64,000 nucleotides of DNA from Gammaproteobacteria bacterium. Its GTDB lineage: Bacteria > Pseudomonadota > Gammaproteobacteria > Pseudomonadales > Pseudohongiellaceae. Of the stretch, positions 19,085 through 63,348 are shown one piece after another. The position numbers and the translations under genes were made by a program. The stretch spans positions 62,001-126,000 of the forward strand of contig JAQWQD010000027.1 in the NCBI GenBank assembly GCA_029244985.1, in the 5' to 3' direction. The notes under the pieces are model-generated. The model did no database searches and was not told the origin of the DNA. It was given only the letters and a program-made list of their open reading frames with translations. Position 1 is the first letter of the stretch. Each line of letters begins with the position of its first letter.

Positions 19085-19180
19085 GGAAGAGTATCATCCC
19101 CGGTGGGGTGCCCGGATTTCAAACCCGGTGAAGTTTGTTAATGACAGGCTTGGTGGGTTCAACTCCTGCCTCTTCCGCCA
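19085..19180 (+). tRNA. selC: tRNA-Sec (UCA anticodon)
   Basis: 96 bases including an encoded GCCA end. Acceptor GGAAGAG pairs with CTCTTCC; the anticodon loop TTTCAAA at 19117-19123 gives anticodon UCA (19119-19121), reading UGA. A long variable arm and the T loop GTTCAAC follow, the plan of bacterial selenocysteine tRNA. The flanking TGGC (19081-19084) is complementary to the terminal GCCA, so the precursor stem extends to 11 pairs. The anticodon stem has one A-C mismatch next to the loop. It is charged with Ser by SerRS, converted by SelA and delivered by SelB; both genes lie downstream in this window. Confidence 0.95.
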
Positions 19181-56102: not shown

Positions 56103-56771
56103 CTATACCAAAGAAGGCCCGGGATTAAAATAATTAGTCCCTGTAGGATGAGATAGGATGTAGTCCACTAATTGCTGATAATCACCGTCATTGCTCACTA
56201 AATCGATCTCGGCGCTATTTACAATCAGTAACGGAGATTTGTGGTAGTAATGAAAAAATTCAGTATAAGCAAGGTTTAAGTTTTCTAAATACCCTAGCTC
56301 TATGAATTGTTCAGCCTTTACTCCCCTTTTTTGAATTCGGTCTAGCAATATGTTGGTAGGTGCTTGTAAATAGATGACTAGGTCCGGTGTGGGTGCTTCA
56401 ATAATAAGATGTTTGTAAACCTTTAAATATAATTCATACTCATCCGCATCTAAATTTTGTAGCGCGAATAAGTGATCTTTATCGATCAAGAAGTCAGCAA
56501 CTCTTACTGGCTCAAATAAATCTTCTTGGCGCAGCTCCTGAATTTGCTGGGCCCGTTGAAATAGGAAAAACAATTGCGTTGATAATGCATGCTGACGAGA
56601 GTTTTCGTAAAACCGATCGAGAAAAGGATTCTCCTCACTTCTTTCTAAAAGTAACTCGTAATTGAAAGATTCGGCTAATCGCTTTGTAAGGCTAGTTTTG
56701 CCAACTCCTATTGGTCCTTCGATCGCAATATAGCGTGGAATATTTCTCGACAGGTCGAATCTTTGCGTCAC
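56103..56771 (-). CDS. Deoxynucleoside kinase family protein
   Basis: 222 residues with P-loop IEGPIGVGKTSLTKRL, the substrate Glu in LLERSEENPFLDRFYE, the DRF/DRx block VRVADFLIDKDHLFA and lid region DRIQKRGVKAEQF. This matches the dCK/dGK-like family that phosphorylates deoxyadenosine, deoxyguanosine or deoxycytidine in salvage. It occupies the place where many gammaproteobacteria have folK between pcnB and panB; folK itself is not here. Its start overlaps the pcnB stop by four bases, so they are translated together. Confidence 0.88.
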   Translation of the reverse strand: MTQRFDLSRNIPRYIAIEGPIGVGKTSLTKRLAESFNYELLLERSEENPFLDRFYENSRQHALSTQLFFLFQRAQQIQELRQEDLFEPVRVADFLIDKDHLFALQNLDADEYELYLKVYKHLIIEAPTPDLVIYLQAPTNILLDRIQKRGVKAEQFIELGYLENLNLAYTEFFHYYHKSPLLIVNSAEIDLVSNDGDYQQLVDYILSHPTGTNYFNPGPSLV

Positions 56772-58123
56772 TCGGAATCACCTGTTCGTTTGCGTTTACT
56801 GCGTCGACGGCGTAGATTTTTTACTCTTGGTACCGCCCCGCTCAATTCTGTTTTTTTCTTCTGATCACCGTTTTGAAAATCCGTCCACCATTGTCCCAGG
56901 CCGTCAAGATCTTCTCCAGCTTGCTCCCTAAGTAATAAAAAATCATAGGCTGCCCGGAAGCGGGGGTGCTTGACTGTACTCTCAATGCTACGCTTATTCC
57001 GGCGTTGTAATCGGCCTTGAAGATCCCAGATTTCGCGACATGCGACAGTAAATCGTTTTGGAATAGCGGTATAGTCGAGTTGCTCCATTAGGGCGGATTG
57101 TGCAGCCTGCTCGAATGCTTGCTGGGGTGCTAGGTCAAGATTCTTAGATTGGGCTAGCTTGAGCTTCAAAACTGGCCAGAGAAGGGCGGAAAAGAGGAAT
57201 GCTGGAGTCACAGATTTTTCCGCGGCTATCCGCGAATCAGTATTGCTCAGGGCCAAGTCCACAAGTTTTGCAGACACGCTATCACCCTGTTCTATTGCAT
57301 CGATAGTGGGTGCAAACAAATAGCTGCCCAATTGATACTGACTTAGTAATTCAAAAGTTCGTTGAGCAAATCCGCCAGTCATGAGTTTTAGGGTCTCATC
57401 GAATAAGCGAGCGGAAGAAATAGAGTCGAGCAAATAGGAAAGGTCATCGATAGGCTTCTTGGTATTCTCCTCAATCTCAAAACCCAATTTTGCAGAAAAG
57501 CGAATCGCTCTTAACATGCGCACTGGGTCTTCTTTATAGCGCGCGGCAGGATCGCCGATCATTCGAATCTCTTTGTTTTGCAAGTCATCAAGACCACCAC
57601 AAAAATCTAATAAGAGAAAATTTCGGGTTGTGTAATAAAGCGCATTTACCGTGAAGTCGCGCCTAAAAGCGTCTTCATCAATGTTTCCATAGACATTATC
57701 TCTAAGAATCATACCTGCTTTTGAGTGAGCTGAATCCAATCCTTTGATTTGACGCCTAGATATATCGTCAGCTATTTGATTTTTGGGGTCGTGATTGGCT
57801 CTAAAGGTAGTGACTTCAATTATTTCACGCCCAAATCTAATATGAACTATTTTAAAGCGGCGACCTATTATTCGAGCATTCTTGAATAATTTCCGTAGTT
57901 CTTCCGGGGAAGCATCAGTCGCAACATCAAAATCCTTGGGTTTTGTGCCTAACAAGAGGTCTCTGACGCCACCTCCAACAAGGTAAGCATGAAAACCAGC
58001 ACTAGATAATCGATACAGTACTTTCAGTGCATTAGGAGAAATTTGTTTACGGGAAATTGAATGATTATCACGTTCAATAACCGTAGCTTTTTCTAATCCA
58101 ACTAATTCGATTTCAGGGTTCAT
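56768..58123 (-). CDS. pcnB: Poly(A) polymerase I
   Basis: 451 residues. The nucleotidyltransferase head has LVGGGVRDLLLGTKPKDFDVATDASPEEL in part, with catalytic DFD; RIIGRRFKIVHIRFG and FRRDFTVNALYY are poly(A)-polymerase markers that set it apart from CCA-adding enzymes. The very basic C-terminus (RRRRSKRKRTG) binds RNA. PcnB adds 3' tails that promote RNA decay. In Pseudomonas pcnB follows cbrB with crcZ in the gap between; the same gap here holds the small RNA described separately. Confidence 0.94.
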   Translation of the reverse strand: MNPEIELVGLEKATVIERDNHSISRKQISPNALKVLYRLSSAGFHAYLVGGGVRDLLLGTKPKDFDVATDASPEELRKLFKNARIIGRRFKIVHIRFGREIIEVTTFRANHDPKNQIADDISRRQIKGLDSAHSKAGMILRDNVYGNIDEDAFRRDFTVNALYYTTRNFLLLDFCGGLDDLQNKEIRMIGDPAARYKEDPVRMLRAIRFSAKLGFEIEENTKKPIDDLSYLLDSISSARLFDETLKLMTGGFAQRTFELLSQYQLGSYLFAPTIDAIEQGDSVSAKLVDLALSNTDSRIAAEKSVTPAFLFSALLWPVLKLKLAQSKNLDLAPQQAFEQAAQSALMEQLDYTAIPKRFTVACREIWDLQGRLQRRNKRSIESTVKHPRFRAAYDFLLLREQAGEDLDGLGQWWTDFQNGDQKKKTELSGAVPRVKNLRRRRSKRKRTGDSE

Positions 58124-58291
58124 TAATAAAACGAGAATATGGTGTCTGGATTCATAGGGACTTTAATGATCTGCCAGGAGATAAACAAAAGACGAGTTAT
58201 TATGATACAACGGTAGCTGGAAAATAGAACGCTCTCTCAAAGGAGAATCTTGGTTTGTATAGGGATAATCAGGCGAATAAGTCTGAAGTAA

Positions 58292-58564
58292 ACAAAAATG
58301 GGAATGAAATCATCCCCATTTTGAAGTAATAGTTATTATTATTATTGCTATTGGTTTACTAATTATTATTTTTATTACTTGGGAGCCAAGCATAGCGCCA
58401 CATAAGCAAGAGGCGGTAATTTTGTGGCGAGATAACAATTCATTACCCTTGGGCCACAAACCCAGCCTTTTTATTATTTAATGCACTAACCTTAGTTATT
58501 TAACTCAGTAATGCTATTTTTGTTTTTATTGGGGTTTATTATTATTATTTATTGTTATTATCGT
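58292..58564 (-). ncRNA. Candidate CrcZ-like Hfq-sequestering small RNA
   Basis: Transcript predicted from 12 bases after a sigma-54 element (about 58564) to the terminator T run (about 58292), roughly 270 bases, on the strand of cbrB and pcnB. It has five A-rich AAN-repeat tracts: 58513-58560 (TAATAACAATAAATAATAAT and on), 58467-58480, 58360-58380, 58328-58352, and a short one near 58500. Between them GC-richer parts can pair, for example TTTGTGGC with GCCACAAA and TGTGGCG with CGCCACA. No open frame of note. In Pseudomonas CrcZ is a sigma-54/CbrB-driven RNA in this same cbrB-pcnB gap that titrates Hfq by AAN motifs. Position, promoter type, motifs and terminator all agree; overall sequence similarity could not be tested. 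Confidence 0.72.
58295..58322 (-). terminator. Intrinsic terminator of the candidate small RNA
   Basis: AAAATGGGGATGA pairs with TCATTCCCATTTT (13 pairs with one G-T) across a two-base loop, followed on the minus strand by TGTTT so the 3' end reads TTTTTGTTT. A strong intrinsic terminator; it also separates the small RNA from pcnB about 170 bases on. Confidence 0.8.
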
Positions 58565-58574
58565 TATTAATTAA

Positions 58575-58590
58575 CGCATTTACTGTGCCA
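58575..58590 (-). promoter_or_regulatory. Sigma-54 promoter (-24/-12) of the candidate small RNA
   Basis: TGGCACAGTAAATGCG on the minus strand matches the sigma-54 consensus TGGCACG-N4-TTGC with two mismatches; the invariant GG and GC are exactly 10 bases apart. The NtrC-type activator CbrB is encoded about 240 bases upstream and would be the natural partner. Confidence 0.72.
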
Positions 58591-58663: not shown

Positions 58664-58709
58664 TGTTACCAATCGCCACTGAAATTTGAGTAAAAGGGTA
58701 GCGGTAACA
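58664..58709. promoter_or_regulatory. Inverted repeat, candidate activator (CbrB) binding site
   Basis: TGTTACC (58664-58670) and GGTAACA (58703-58709) form a perfect seven-base inverted repeat 32 bases apart, 100-145 bases before the predicted small-RNA start. NtrC-family activators bind such dyads at this range. Confidence 0.45.
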
Positions 58710-58812: not shown

Positions 58813-60201
58813 TTAAACAGCTAGTTTCTTCTTTCTGGGAATTCCAAATCGCTGCCTGCGCTCCCAAAGACATTTGCGAGAGATGCCAAGCTTTTTGGCT
58901 AATTGGGTTTCGTTCATTGAGCCCTGATGTTCGACCACAAATCGCTGAAAATAGTCCTCCAAGGACAGTTCTTCTATGGGCTCTGCTAGGATGGGCTCTG
59001 CTAGGATGCGCGTAGCTTGCTGTCTTGAGTCTAGCTCTGCTTCAGCGATCTCATCTTCGATAGCAAGTAATTCTTCTCCAATTTTGTCCCCTTCGGCCAA
59101 GACAACCGCTCGCTCAATCGCATTTTCCAATTCTCGTACATTACCTGGCCAAGTGTACTTAGCAATAGCTCGACTTGCTCCATCTGAAAAACTTCGCATT
59201 GTTGTTTTTAGTCTAGTACAGGTTCGTTGCAAAATGGTGTCGGCTAGTTCTAGTATATCGTTGCCTCTATCTCGCAGAGGAGGAATTATAAGCGTCATGA
59301 CATTGATACGGTAATACAAATCTTCCCGAAAATATCCATCAATTACGAGTTGCTTCAAATCGCGATGTGTCGCGGCGACCAATCGTACGTCTACTTTTTT
59401 TGACTGCACAGAGCCAACCTTTCTTATTTCGTTTTCTTGCAGTACTCGAAGCAGTCTTGCCTGGGCTTCAAGAGGGAGTTCTCCGATTTCATCCAAAAAC
59501 AAAGTGCTGCTACTTGCGGCTTCAACCAATCCTGTTCTTGTAGCGGTTGCCCCAGTAAAAGCTCCTTTTTCATGACCGAATAATTCTGATTCGATTAGAT
59601 TTTCAGGAATAGCTGCACAATTCACAGATATCATTTCCTGGCTTTCTCTAGAACTCAGGTTATGAATGGCTCGAGCAACCAGTTCTTTGCCAGTGCCAGA
59701 TTCACCATTTATTAAGACCGTTGAATTAGTTTGCGCCACTTTTCTTGTTCTACGAAATAGTTCCATCATTTGTGGGCAACTGCCAATCATTCCGTGGACT
59801 GGAGGTTCGTGTTCATTATCATTTGATGCAGGCTTGGGGTCTCTGCCGCGCTCACGAATAATTTTTGCAACAGTTTCTATTATTTCATTGTGCTCAAAAG
59901 GTTTGGCAATATAATCCACGGCTCCCATCTTCATCGAATCAATGGCTGACCGGATGCTGGAATAGCTTGTCATAATAAGGACTGGAGTGTTGGTTGCTTT
60001 TATAAGGTCAGTGCCTGGTGCGCCCGGAAGCCTTAGGTCACTTATAATGACATCGAAATTATCAATGTCATATTTTTCCATCGATTCTTTGACAGTGCCT
60101 GCTTCAGAAACTTCATAGTTATGTCGCTCTAAAAGACGTCTTAATGAAGTGCGAATTACTTCTTCGTCTTCTACTACTAAAACTTGGTTTGTTGATATCA
60201 T
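58813..60201 (-). CDS. cbrB: Sigma-54-dependent response regulator, CbrB type
   Basis: 462 residues from the ATG at 60201 (an upstream TTG overlaps the kinase gene). Receiver domain 1-120 with phospho-Asp in VIISDLRLPG, Thr in VLIMTSYSS and Lys in YIAKPF; AAA+ domain about 145-380 with Walker A NGESGTGKE, GHEKGAFTGAT (sigma-54 contact) and Walker B LFLDEIGELP; C-terminal Fis-type helix-turn-helix NETQLAKKLGISRKCLWERR. A perfect 15-base tandem repeat (58976-59005) encodes ILAEP twice in the linker. It follows the kinase by five bases. Assignment to CbrB rests on the symporter-kinase partner and the gluQ/pcnB neighbours. Confidence 0.87.
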   Translation of the reverse strand: MISTNQVLVVEDEEVIRTSLRRLLERHNYEVSEAGTVKESMEKYDIDNFDVIISDLRLPGAPGTDLIKATNTPVLIMTSYSSIRSAIDSMKMGAVDYIAKPFEHNEIIETVAKIIRERGRDPKPASNDNEHEPPVHGMIGSCPQMMELFRRTRKVAQTNSTVLINGESGTGKELVARAIHNLSSRESQEMISVNCAAIPENLIESELFGHEKGAFTGATATRTGLVEAASSSTLFLDEIGELPLEAQARLLRVLQENEIRKVGSVQSKKVDVRLVAATHRDLKQLVIDGYFREDLYYRINVMTLIIPPLRDRGNDILELADTILQRTCTRLKTTMRSFSDGASRAIAKYTWPGNVRELENAIERAVVLAEGDKIGEELLAIEDEIAEAELDSRQQATRILAEPILAEPIEELSLEDYFQRFVVEHQGSMNETQLAKKLGISRKCLWERRQRFGIPRKKKLAV

Positions 60202-60206
60202 AAATC

Positions 60207-63182
60207 TTAACAATCAGGTTGCTGTAATTTGTCATCCAGTGCTAGCTGATCGCTACTCACTGCATGGTCTTCTTCGAGCCGAGGAAAGCGAATTACAACT
60301 TGTGTTCCTGTACCTTTGTTCGTATCAATGGGGCTGATTATATCAATAACTCCACTTAAATCCTCTACAATACTAAAAACTAGCGATAAGCCAAGCCCGG
60401 TGCCCTTTCCAGCCTCCTTAGTAGTAAAAAATGGGTCGAAAATCCGATCCCGTATCTGGGGTTGTATGCCCATTCCTTGGTCAGTTACCTCAATTTTGAC
60501 ATAGTCCCCGTCAATGCTGCCGACCAAAGATATCTTATTGTTTTGTTGGCTTGCATCTCTTGCATTATTAATTAAATTTACTAATACCTGCAGTAGTCGT
60601 TGAGAATCGCCTAGGATTGCTGCTTTAGGATCACAGTTAATCTCATATTTTAGATTCTTGTTTTTTTTGTCCAATGAAATCAGAATGCTAGCTTCTTGCA
60701 TGCATTTCTCTATTAAAACGACTTCATTTTTAGAGTGCGCTTTGTTGGTTCCTGCGTGAGCAAAGTTAACAAGTGAATATACAATTTTAGAAGTTCGATT
60801 AGTTTGTTCAATTATCTGCTCTGCCAAATTATTCAATTCCTCGCCGTCATACTCATCCCGAATAGTTTGGGCTAGGCAGGCGATTCCAGTGATTGGGTTG
60901 CCAATCTCATGAGCTACGCCTGCTGCTAAGCGGCCGATTGAAGCGAGACGTTCGCTATGGGATAGGCTTGCTGCTAGTAACTCTGTTTCAGTAATATCTT
61001 CAATTAGAATTATCACGCCTTCATGGCTAGTACTATTTTTGTTTGACTCTTCAATAAGCGCTTTGTGTAAATTGACCGATTTTTTTACTCCATTTAACTG
61101 AAAATTATGTTTAAACGAATGATTAGCATCTTCTTTCAAAAAATATTTTAATAAAGAAGACCATGGTTCTTCAATATCAGCAAGCTGGGAACCAACTACG
61201 CTGTTCGAGTCGATCTTAGTAAACTCTTCTAATGCATGATTCCACATTATTATTTCGTTGTCATAAGAGAGAGAGCATACGCCAAGGGGCAGGTCTAATA
61301 ATATTTGTCGATGATAGCGACGCAAACTATCAAGATCTGCAGCCATACCTGATAAATTTGATCGATAAGACTCTATTCTATTTTCTATGACATTCAAATC
61401 AGAACTACCGTGTTCAGAAATAACACTGTAGGGAAGATGGTTGTCGATTAATTCTCTCGCGATCGAGGGCCCCAATAATCCCGAAAGATTGGCTTCCGTT
61501 CTTGCCCTCAACAAGCGCATTGAATATGGCCTTCTATCATCGCTGCTCAAATTTAAATCTTGCAGTGCCTGGTTCACTTCTCGGGTGGCGGTTTTATTCC
61601 CAAGGGGCTTGCTTAAGCTTCTTATGAATTCTCCAGCCGACTTCGCAACTAGCCCACTGCGTTTGCGTCTTTGAATGGTATCCAAAGCACAAATATCTGC
61701 AGAGCTTCTCTCTTCGTCACTGGTCCTAGTGAGTAGGGAGATAATGACAAATAGGAAAGTATTACCAATTAGTGATATTGAAGAAATTTCTTGCCAATTT
61801 AATGACACTAATGAAAGAGAAGTTGCTGTCATTTCGAAAAACAATGGGAGCATTAAGAATACAAACCAAACAAGAAATGCCGCACTTAACCCTGCAATGA
61901 ACCCCTTCTTGTTGCCCTGAGGCCAGTAGAGAATAGCAACAATTCCCGGCAGGAATTGTAGTGAAGCAGAAAAAGCAACTGTTCCAATCACTTGAATACT
62001 AATGGTTGGTTTTTCCAAATAATAAAAAAGAAAGCCTGCCCAAATTAATGCAGTTATCAGTAGTCGACGGTACCAGAGTAACCAGCGATAAATATCTTGC
62101 TTTGCGCTGGGCTGATAGATTGGAAGAATAATATGATTTAGACACATGTTTGATAGTGCCAGAGTAATCACAATAATTAATCCGCTTGCAGCACTTAAAC
62201 CGCCAAGGTAACCAATAAGAGTTATAATTGGACTGCCATACGCTGCACCGATTGCTACCGGTAGATATTCCACTTGAACTAGAGTTGCCGATTGTAGGCC
62301 AGCCCAAAGTATGGGCAAGACTGGCAGGCTAAGGATTAGAAAATAGAGAGGCAATCCCCAGCTTGCATAGGATAGAGAGCGTTGCCCATTAGATTCATTA
62401 AAGGTCGCATAAAACATATGTGGCATAGCGATAGAGGCGGTAAAAAATAGTAATGCTATGACATGAAATGAGCTAAGATAATCTGTGTCTTTCAGACTTT
62501 CTAATAATTCAGGTTGCTGGTTTAGCCATTCATTAAGCTCCCCCAAGCTTCCAAAAGCACCAAATATTGCAAAAGCTCCTACAATTAAAAAAGCGACCAG
62601 TTTTACGAGAGATTCGAACGCAATTGCCATGACCAATCCGTCGTGGCGAGTTCTGCCTGCTCGTCTCGATGTGCCAAATAAAATTGCAAACAATGTTATT
62701 AGAATACAGAAGCCAATCGCTATGGCTCCTTGAGTGGGTTCTGCTGAAATAATGTCGGCGGTGTCCTCAACGGCTCTAATCTGCAGTGCGATTAAAGGAA
62801 TAACTCCAATTAAAATCACGATGGTTGTTATGGTGCCAGCCCATGGTGATCGATACCGAAATGCCATGAGGTCTGCAAGTGAGCTTAGCTGGTAAGTTCT
62901 GGTAAGCTCCAAGATTGGCTTTAAGAGTAAAGGAGATAATAGAAAAGCGAGTGATATGCCGATTGAATGGGCTAGATATCCAAATCCATCACGCAGCGCA
63001 TTACCAACAGAGGTGTAGTATGCCCAAATGCTAGCAAACACTCCCAGTGACAGCACATAAATTATAGGGTGTCGAATTAGGCGCTGAGGTATCCAGCCTT
63101 TATCAGTGATGAAGGCGACTCCAAAAAGTAAGACTAAATAGCAGCTTCCCAGCAGAAAAAGGGTAGTTAACTCATAATTCAT
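60207..63182 (-). CDS. cbrA: Sodium/solute symporter-histidine kinase fusion, CbrA type
   Basis: 991 residues from the ATG at 63182, which has AGGA eight bases upstream. Residues about 1-490 are a 13-helix SSS transporter domain; a short linker with a PAS-like domain (about 630-750, LDLPLGVCSLSYDNEIIMWNHALEEF) follows; then the kinase core with H-box GVAHEIGNPITGIACLAQTI, N-box LVNLINNARDAS, and G boxes VTDQGMGIQ and GKGTGLGLSLVFSIVE. CbrA senses carbon/nitrogen state and in P. putida transports histidine. The upstream small gene overlaps its start by 11 bases, and cbrB follows immediately. Confidence 0.88.
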   Translation of the reverse strand: MNYELTTLFLLGSCYLVLLFGVAFITDKGWIPQRLIRHPIIYVLSLGVFASIWAYYTSVGNALRDGFGYLAHSIGISLAFLLSPLLLKPILELTRTYQLSSLADLMAFRYRSPWAGTITTIVILIGVIPLIALQIRAVEDTADIISAEPTQGAIAIGFCILITLFAILFGTSRRAGRTRHDGLVMAIAFESLVKLVAFLIVGAFAIFGAFGSLGELNEWLNQQPELLESLKDTDYLSSFHVIALLFFTASIAMPHMFYATFNESNGQRSLSYASWGLPLYFLILSLPVLPILWAGLQSATLVQVEYLPVAIGAAYGSPIITLIGYLGGLSAASGLIIVITLALSNMCLNHIILPIYQPSAKQDIYRWLLWYRRLLITALIWAGFLFYYLEKPTISIQVIGTVAFSASLQFLPGIVAILYWPQGNKKGFIAGLSAAFLVWFVFLMLPLFFEMTATSLSLVSLNWQEISSISLIGNTFLFVIISLLTRTSDEERSSADICALDTIQRRKRSGLVAKSAGEFIRSLSKPLGNKTATREVNQALQDLNLSSDDRRPYSMRLLRARTEANLSGLLGPSIARELIDNHLPYSVISEHGSSDLNVIENRIESYRSNLSGMAADLDSLRRYHRQILLDLPLGVCSLSYDNEIIMWNHALEEFTKIDSNSVVGSQLADIEEPWSSLLKYFLKEDANHSFKHNFQLNGVKKSVNLHKALIEESNKNSTSHEGVIILIEDITETELLAASLSHSERLASIGRLAAGVAHEIGNPITGIACLAQTIRDEYDGEELNNLAEQIIEQTNRTSKIVYSLVNFAHAGTNKAHSKNEVVLIEKCMQEASILISLDKKNKNLKYEINCDPKAAILGDSQRLLQVLVNLINNARDASQQNNKISLVGSIDGDYVKIEVTDQGMGIQPQIRDRIFDPFFTTKEAGKGTGLGLSLVFSIVEDLSGVIDIISPIDTNKGTGTQVVIRFPRLEEDHAVSSDQLALDDKLQQPDC

Positions 63183-63348
63183 CAGAATCCTGCTCTCTAT
63201 GGGCCCAGCTTGACACAATGATAATCATCAAACCTATTATAAATGGGCGATACCAAGCTCCATTAGGTTGGTTGATCCAGTCAATACTTACTAGGAACAA
63301 CAAATAAATGATTACCAATAGCACTAAGATAGAGCGAGGAATGTACAC
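63172..63348 (-). CDS. 58-residue membrane protein upstream of cbrA (CbrX-like)
   Basis: GTG at 63348 with GGAG eight bases before it, stop TGA at 63172-63174. The product has two hydrophobic helices (ILVLLVIIYLLFLVSID and FIIGLMIIIVSSWA) and a charged tail HREQDSDEL. It starts five bases after the gluQ stop and ends 11 bases inside cbrA (ATGAATTATGA), so its translation should be coupled to cbrA. In Pseudomonas a small membrane gene, cbrX, lies before cbrA with the same coupling; sequence identity cannot be judged here, so the symbol is left blank. Confidence 0.7.
   Translation of the reverse strand: MYIPRSILVLLVIIYLLFLVSIDWINQPNGAWYRPFIIGLMIIIVSSWAHREQDSDEL

Follow-up and report, generated by a model that had tools for sequence, protein, structure and literature searches.

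Whether the small RNA CrcZ, whose gene is followed by pcnB in Pseudomonas, has an equivalent in other lineages is the question raised by the locus studied here. In the window, a stretch of 64,000 nucleotides from a Pseudohongiellaceae genome of 3.2 Mb (76 contigs, 95.7% complete), cbrA, cbrB and pcnB follow each other on the minus strand, and the predicted RNA lies in the gap 3′ of cbrB and ahead of pcnB on the same strand, which is the location of a CrcZ-type RNA. The order cbrA–cbrB–crcZ has been described for Pseudomonas in a 2022 review, according to which CbrAB is unique to Pseudomonadaceae and hosted only by Pseudomonas and Azotobacter (PMC8871633), and CbrAB has also been called exclusive of Pseudomonads (PMC6296734). 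Moreover, titles and abstracts among the matches listed from open-licence literature describe no CrcZ in OM182, Pseudohongiella or Marinobacter. We consider it probable that the cbrB–pcnB gap contains the gene for a CrcZ-type Hfq decoy, driven by CbrB and sigma-54 and working without Crc. A sequence-only reading had proposed a CrcZ equivalent at this place, and this proposal is supported by the locus, the promoter, the A-rich tracts, the terminator, the conservation in relatives and the presence of rpoN and hfq in the genome (Table 1).

Table 1. Genes and predicted elements of the cbrB–pcnB locus, in window coordinates
Feature	Position	Strand	Remark
cbrA-like sensor kinase, long N-terminal half	60207..63218	-	HisKA + HATPase_c
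cbrB-like response regulator	58813..60213	-	receiver + sigma-54 activation domain
TGTTAC, CbrB-type forward subsite (F), candidate	58704..58709	-	119 nt ahead of sigma-54 TGG
GTAACA, CbrB-type reverse subsite (R), candidate	58664..58669	-	79 nt ahead of sigma-54 TGG
Sigma-54 promoter element TGGCACAGTAAATGCG	58575..58590	-	core in 71/76 compared regions
Predicted CrcZ-type RNA, ~278 nt	58287..58564	-	ends inferred from promoter and terminator
A-rich tract 1, AATAACAATAAA	58548..58559	-	conserved in alignment A1
A-rich tract 2, AATAATAATAAA	58535..58546	-	alignment A1
A-rich tract 3, AATAAAAACAAAAAT	58516..58530	-	alignment A1
Hairpin 1 (GCAUUA...UAGUGC), between tracts 3 and 4	58483..58514	-	A1 helices 1-2
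A-rich tract 4, AATAATAAAAAG	58467..58478	-	alignment A1
Hairpin 2, covarying	58426..58455	-	A1 helices 3-4: both-side changes in 7/7 pairs
Hairpin 3, covarying	58385..58396	-	A1 helix 5: both-side changes in 2/3 pairs
A-rich tract 5, AATAAAAATAATAAT	58362..58376	-	alignment A1
A-rich tract 6, AATAATAATAATAAC	58332..58346	-	alignment A1
3′ hairpin, terminator-like, T-rich tail	58295..58322	-	A1 helix 6: both-side changes in 6/9 pairs
pcnB, poly(A) polymerase, downstream neighbour	56768..58123	-	TIGR01942, 498.6 bits

The sigma-54 element has ten bases between GG and GC, exactly as claimed before, and the transcription start placed earlier at 58564 agrees with a +1 set twelve bases past the −12 C; the coordinates likewise bear out that promoter, tracts and hairpin all lie on the cbrB strand. 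In P. putida, CbrB is reported to use TGTTAC (F) and GTAACA (R) subsites 5′ of crcZ, three in total and 20–25 bp apart (PMC6296734). The TGTTAC and GTAACA of the window are identical to these F and R subsites, respectively, and are probably CbrB subsites too. Hence a sigma-54 element is present together with two out of three subsites of the P. putida type, in the same register as in Pseudomonas, whereas the two window subsites are 40 nt apart and the middle subsite (about −102), usual in the loci of family f21, was not seen in the window. When the whole 3.2-Mb genome was scanned with a strict GTAACA-N60-85-sigma54 pattern, this locus was the single match, which gives no evidence for a CrcY-like copy; the backward control pattern likewise gave one match.

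Conservation of this promoter was measured in 76 regions without dereplication: the window and, from 78 named loci, the 75 that remained after exclusion of three lacking a cbrB stop. Loci cut by contig ends were kept as far as they reach. The core TGGCAY-N7-GC was found in 71 of the 76 regions (1.75 in shuffles), GTAACA at the right distance from it in 65 (0 in shuffles) and the full TGTTAC–GTAACA–sigma54 module in 62 (0 in shuffles; 20 rounds in each case), while the pattern used did not match a core in the other five. On the reverse strand of the same 76 regions, one sigma-54 core and no GTAACA–sigma54 pair were found. In the survey by locus, the cbrB stop assigned to L099 and the sigma-54 element picked for L130 are wrong. 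Families and genera of the compared genomes are taken from their labels, and relatives labelled as Gammaproteobacteria MAGs were placed by CbrB identity. Family f20 is taken to be that of Marinobacter, since G204 has match coordinates in common with the genome of L140.

At the level of the order, 16 of the 20 genomes with CbrB outside family f1 were examined, and a sigma-54 core lies in the gap of 12 of these 16 loci from other Pseudomonadales families; L048, L051 and L059 have no such core, and the contig of L046 ends early. Other families of the order therefore hold the module in part. In family f21, which we infer to be Pseudomonadaceae, all 13 loci pass the Rfam CrcZ threshold, with the F subsite at −113 to −125 and the Rfam match beginning 27–28 nt after the sigma-54 TGG. 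In 12 of these 13 loci, one GTAAC stands at −102 to −104 and another at −80 to −82; L141 has it at −88 only.

The proteins of the system are encoded in the window genome as well. RpoN (476 bits) and Hfq (97.6 bits) were found in addition to CbrA and CbrB, so that the genome search proposed earlier for rpoN, hfq and crc succeeded for the first two genes and found no crc. CbrA residues 13–603 match PDB 10ed 'histidine kinase' with 624 bits, and, for the SLC5/SSF transporter domain by which CbrA is recognised at its N terminus, Pfam gave no SSF match at E ≤ 1. Of 58 genomes searched, 54 have a CbrB homologue at E ≤ 1e-100, the window genome counted. By CbrB identity, OM182 bacterium MED-G28 is the nearest named relative (95%), relatives at 71–75% include Pseudohongiella nitratireducens (Pseudohongiellaceae, Pseudomonadales), and identity is 65% to the homologue of G056, a genome with an RNA above the Rfam CrcZ threshold. 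The window-genome Hfq keeps Y25, G29, I30, K31 and Q33, which we take to be residues of its distal face. For Y25 this position has been reported (PMC4063720).

Downstream of the promoter, A-rich tracts were expected from the earlier reading, and they are present, although as six runs of at least four triplets instead of the five counted before; the six are (ARN)n≥4 tracts. The 260 nt past the promoter hold all six AAN runs, against a mean of 0.5 in dinucleotide shuffles (six reached in 0 of 2000), and no run of at least four triplets was found in the 222 nt 5′ of the promoter. Chance A-richness was considered as an explanation and is ruled out by these shuffles and by the fixed positions of the tracts in relatives. 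The use of AAUAAU in place of AACAAC holds for the window, whereas relatives mix AAU, AAC and AAA. The intrinsic terminator is a terminator-like stem at 58322–58295 with 12 pairs, not the 13 given before, and is one of four terminator-like sites on both strands of a 1.2-kb stretch (0.7 ± 0.7 in shuffles). The RNA strand also folds better than its own shuffles (z −2.94, 0 of 200 equally good).

Loss of promoter and tracts in close relatives had been named beforehand as a finding that would speak against a CrcZ equivalent; both are retained, with the sigma-54 core in 71 of 76 regions and A-rich tracts in nearly all relatives that hold it. Two alignments, A1 with 33 sequences and A2 with 18, comprise the window and 50 regions hand-picked from 72. 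In A1, conservation is among the highest in the columns of the first tracts, and the tracts are separated by hairpins. With the RNAalifold structure of this alignment, paired cells amount to 94.8% (88.4 in shuffled alignments), both-side changes occur in 15 of 25 pairs (7.4) and the covariation score is 0.316 (0.196), values that 0 of 500 shuffled alignments reached in each case; since A1 itself was used to derive this structure, the covariation test favours it. The score falls to 0.06–0.11 when partners are slid, and further pair types in A1 are not above shuffles (132 of 500). Hairpin 1 shows little variation, with 98–99% of A1 cells paired. The Pseudohongiella group (A2) has its own version of the RNA with a very conserved 3′ hairpin. 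In this group (L103–L130) the hairpin has an invariant ACCTTCCTTGCGGGGGGG arm followed by AGAGCATTTCC and no T run, and may thus be more than a terminator.

Conserved hairpins would also be expected from a CbrB-controlled, Hfq-associated sRNA that pairs with mRNAs through its hairpin regions and uses the A tracts only to recruit Hfq, and the nearly invariant block GCATTACTGAGTT...TTAGTGCA in A1 agrees with this explanation. We regard it as unlikely, because six separate tracts exceed the need of one recruitment, hairpin sequences vary while tract spacing is kept, and the P. aeruginosa counterpart has been reported as a decoy (PMC4063720). Very unlikely, in our estimate, is a long, structured and A-rich cbrB 3′ untranslated region or pcnB leader with no separate RNA. 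A cbrB–crcZ co-transcript has been reported in Azotobacter (PMC6292655), and five relatives dispense with this stretch: in five genomes of the same genus (L035, L037, L042, L043 and L045) the spacing of cbrB and pcnB is just 5–60 nt, which leaves no room for the RNA, so that it is not universal at the cbrB–pcnB gap within the genus. Nevertheless, promoter and activator sites stand in conserved register in 62 of 76 regions, and a terminator-like hairpin lies ahead of pcnB; both argue for an RNA of its own.

A covariance search with the Rfam CrcZ model (RF01675, gathering threshold 95 bits), suggested with the original proposal, failed to place the window RNA above threshold. The match at 58561–58268 scores 15.3 bits (E 0.055 in 501 nt), which is too weak for use as stand-alone proof; it spans the full model and has the lowest E-value among the 10 matches listed for the stretch. 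In 341 Pseudomonadales genomes, 16 pass the threshold (13 of f21 and three of f2), and 72 reach E ≤ 0.01, a level at which chance would give about three. Five Pseudohongiellaceae genomes of genus g23 reach 35–41 bits, with E from 2e-7 to 4e-9.

A second search covered 38 genomes, namely the window genome and 37 named genomes including Marinobacter pelagius (37 of 80 named loci). CrcZ matches at E ≤ 1 were obtained in 32 of the 38, none above threshold, and 6 of 14 control genomes also matched at this limit. The best genome-wide match falls in the cbrB–pcnB gap in 29 of the 37 named genomes (23 at E ≤ 1e-3); six of the other eight have no match, and two have their best match elsewhere. For the window genome as a whole, the gap is not among the matches listed, and a chance-level match (E 0.186) lies elsewhere. 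Reciprocal nhmmer searches at E ≤ 1 gave 19 matches with the A1 profile and 21 with A2, weak (best 6.5e-6) and all in 43 candidate loci; the 81 background loci gave none. Judged from its sequence, the window RNA is CrcZ-type, homologous by place and promoter; its score does not place it in RF01675. Separately, G043 has Rfam CrcZ matches on two contigs other than that of cbrB (G043:C154 and G043:C113); on the latter (L168), GTAAC precedes a sigma-54 element, and these matches are possible extra CrcZ-like copies.

One departure from Pseudomonas concerns Crc, a nuclease-dead protein of the ExoIII family, which was not found in the 95.7% complete window genome. The only ExoIII-family protein found there (L040) has all eight active-site letters checked intact, and scores 297.7 bits to the exodeoxyribonuclease entry 2jc5 versus 269.6 to Crc. 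Sixteen Crc-like genes, 15 from genomes of other families and one from Marinobacter pelagius, have lost several active-site letters; within the stretch examined, all 16 adjoin pyrE and 13 also adjoin rph. In the window genome, the one Pseudohongiellaceae genome in which this junction was inspected, rph and pyrE are adjacent, with about 30 bp and no crc between them. Hence the mechanism with Hfq and Crc cannot be transferred as it stands to this genome, in which Hfq would repress alone or with another partner.

The active site is intact in all classified ExoIII-like loci of Pseudohongiellaceae, which are 31 from 30 genomes of the window genus, 27 further loci (genomes partly shared) and 13 second copies. 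Fragments or unretrieved matches in G005, G010, G028 and G033 were left unclassified, and G019, G021, G034, G036 and G408 gave no match at the limits used. The second Crc-like matches in Pseudohongiella-type genomes (27–29% identity) were considered as divergent Crc and rejected, as all 13 retrieved have an intact active site; neither pyrE nor rph lies in the stretch examined around them. In a midpoint-rooted tree, a branch (100/99) sets the 16 Crc rows apart, with no Pseudohongiellaceae row among them. G057 has an intact ExoIII-like gene between pyrE and rph (L214, G057:C71:193400-197100), which is the place of Crc in other families, and this hints at where Crc came from.

According to the reading as a Crc-free Hfq decoy, exhaustion of good carbon sources would lead CbrA to activate CbrB, by analogy with Pseudomonas. 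CbrB would then bind the TGTTAC and GTAACA seen here and drive sigma-54 RNA polymerase at 58590–58575, and a non-coding RNA of about 278 nt, observed as sequence and covariation, would be produced. This RNA is predicted to have six single-stranded (ARN)n tracts, hairpins between them and the 3′ hairpin at its end. By analogy, the tracts would bind the distal face of the Hfq hexamer and keep Hfq off A-rich ribosome-binding sites, and mRNAs for poorer carbon sources would be translated upon titration of Hfq, as has been reported for P. aeruginosa CrcZ. The repressor titrated may be Hfq alone, or Hfq with another partner, and without Crc this repressor arm may differ from that of Pseudomonas. The CrcZ RNA of P. 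aeruginosa is reported to contain six (ARN)n≥4 repeats and to titrate Hfq via the distal face, and Hfq without Crc sufficed for repression of amiE in E. coli (PMC4063720); a Crc-free Hfq decoy is hence mechanistically sound. With Crc, Hfq forms defined higher-order assemblies (PMC9890229).

In a scan for Hfq targets, (ARN)n≥5 stood at the start of 0 of 43 window ORFs, against 32 of 5000 random 42-nt windows; the window ORFs thus yielded no target. Least probable of all is a real promoter and RNA for another output, such as nitrogen control, unlinked to Hfq titration, which agrees with these 0 of 43 ORFs, with the missing Crc and with a function read only from sequence, and disagrees with cbrB adjoining the RNA, with the known CbrB subsites and with tracts that fit the ARN rule of the Hfq distal face.

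Decoys of the CsrB/RsmZ type are unlike CrcZ in motif and promoter control, and titrate CsrA/RsmA. They would share with the window RNA the principle of titrating an RNA-binding regulator by means of repeated motifs to which it binds, and CrcZ has been compared with them in this way (PMC4063720). Closer is Pseudomonas CrcZ (RF01675, with the paralogues CrcY and CrcX), which has the same place 3′ of cbrB, six ARN tracts, and tracts near both RNA ends with structure between. It is longer (407 nt in P. aeruginosa versus about 278 nt; PMC4063720), and the window RNA differs further in its sub-threshold Rfam score and in a genome where no Crc was found. CrcZ and CrcY of Azotobacter vinelandii are reported to have the CbrB/sigma-54 control and decoy role proposed here, whereas Azotobacter belongs to Pseudomonadaceae and the decoys there act on Hfq-Crc (PMC6292655). 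Acinetobacter baumannii sRNA99, compared by description only, has three AAN motifs and is CrcZ-like in Hfq RIL-seq, and the passage on it states no link with CbrB (PMC12802169).

The whole module of activator sites and decoy RNA is now seen in a largely uncultured marine group, which suggests that this carbon-control switch is more widespread, and possibly simpler, than thought. It seems to us an evenly balanced proposal that the CbrAB/sigma-54/ARN-decoy module extends across much of Pseudomonadales and that Pseudohongiellaceae run an Hfq-only carbon-repression switch, either as a state before Crc or after its loss, possibly with the intact ExoIII-like relative as substitute. A natural system of Hfq and decoy with no Crc makes the share of Hfq itself in carbon catabolite repression, versus the addition made by Crc, directly testable. 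The module also offers a handle on the ranking of carbon sources by OM182 cells.

Two further genes of the window were noted. A selenocysteine tRNA gene lies at 19085–19176 on the plus strand (RF01852, 61.3 bits). On the minus strand, a gene of the deoxynucleoside-kinase family at 56103–56771 (PF01712, 126 bits) overlaps the pcnB end and lies ahead of panB, in a place that folK occupies in Pseudomonas.
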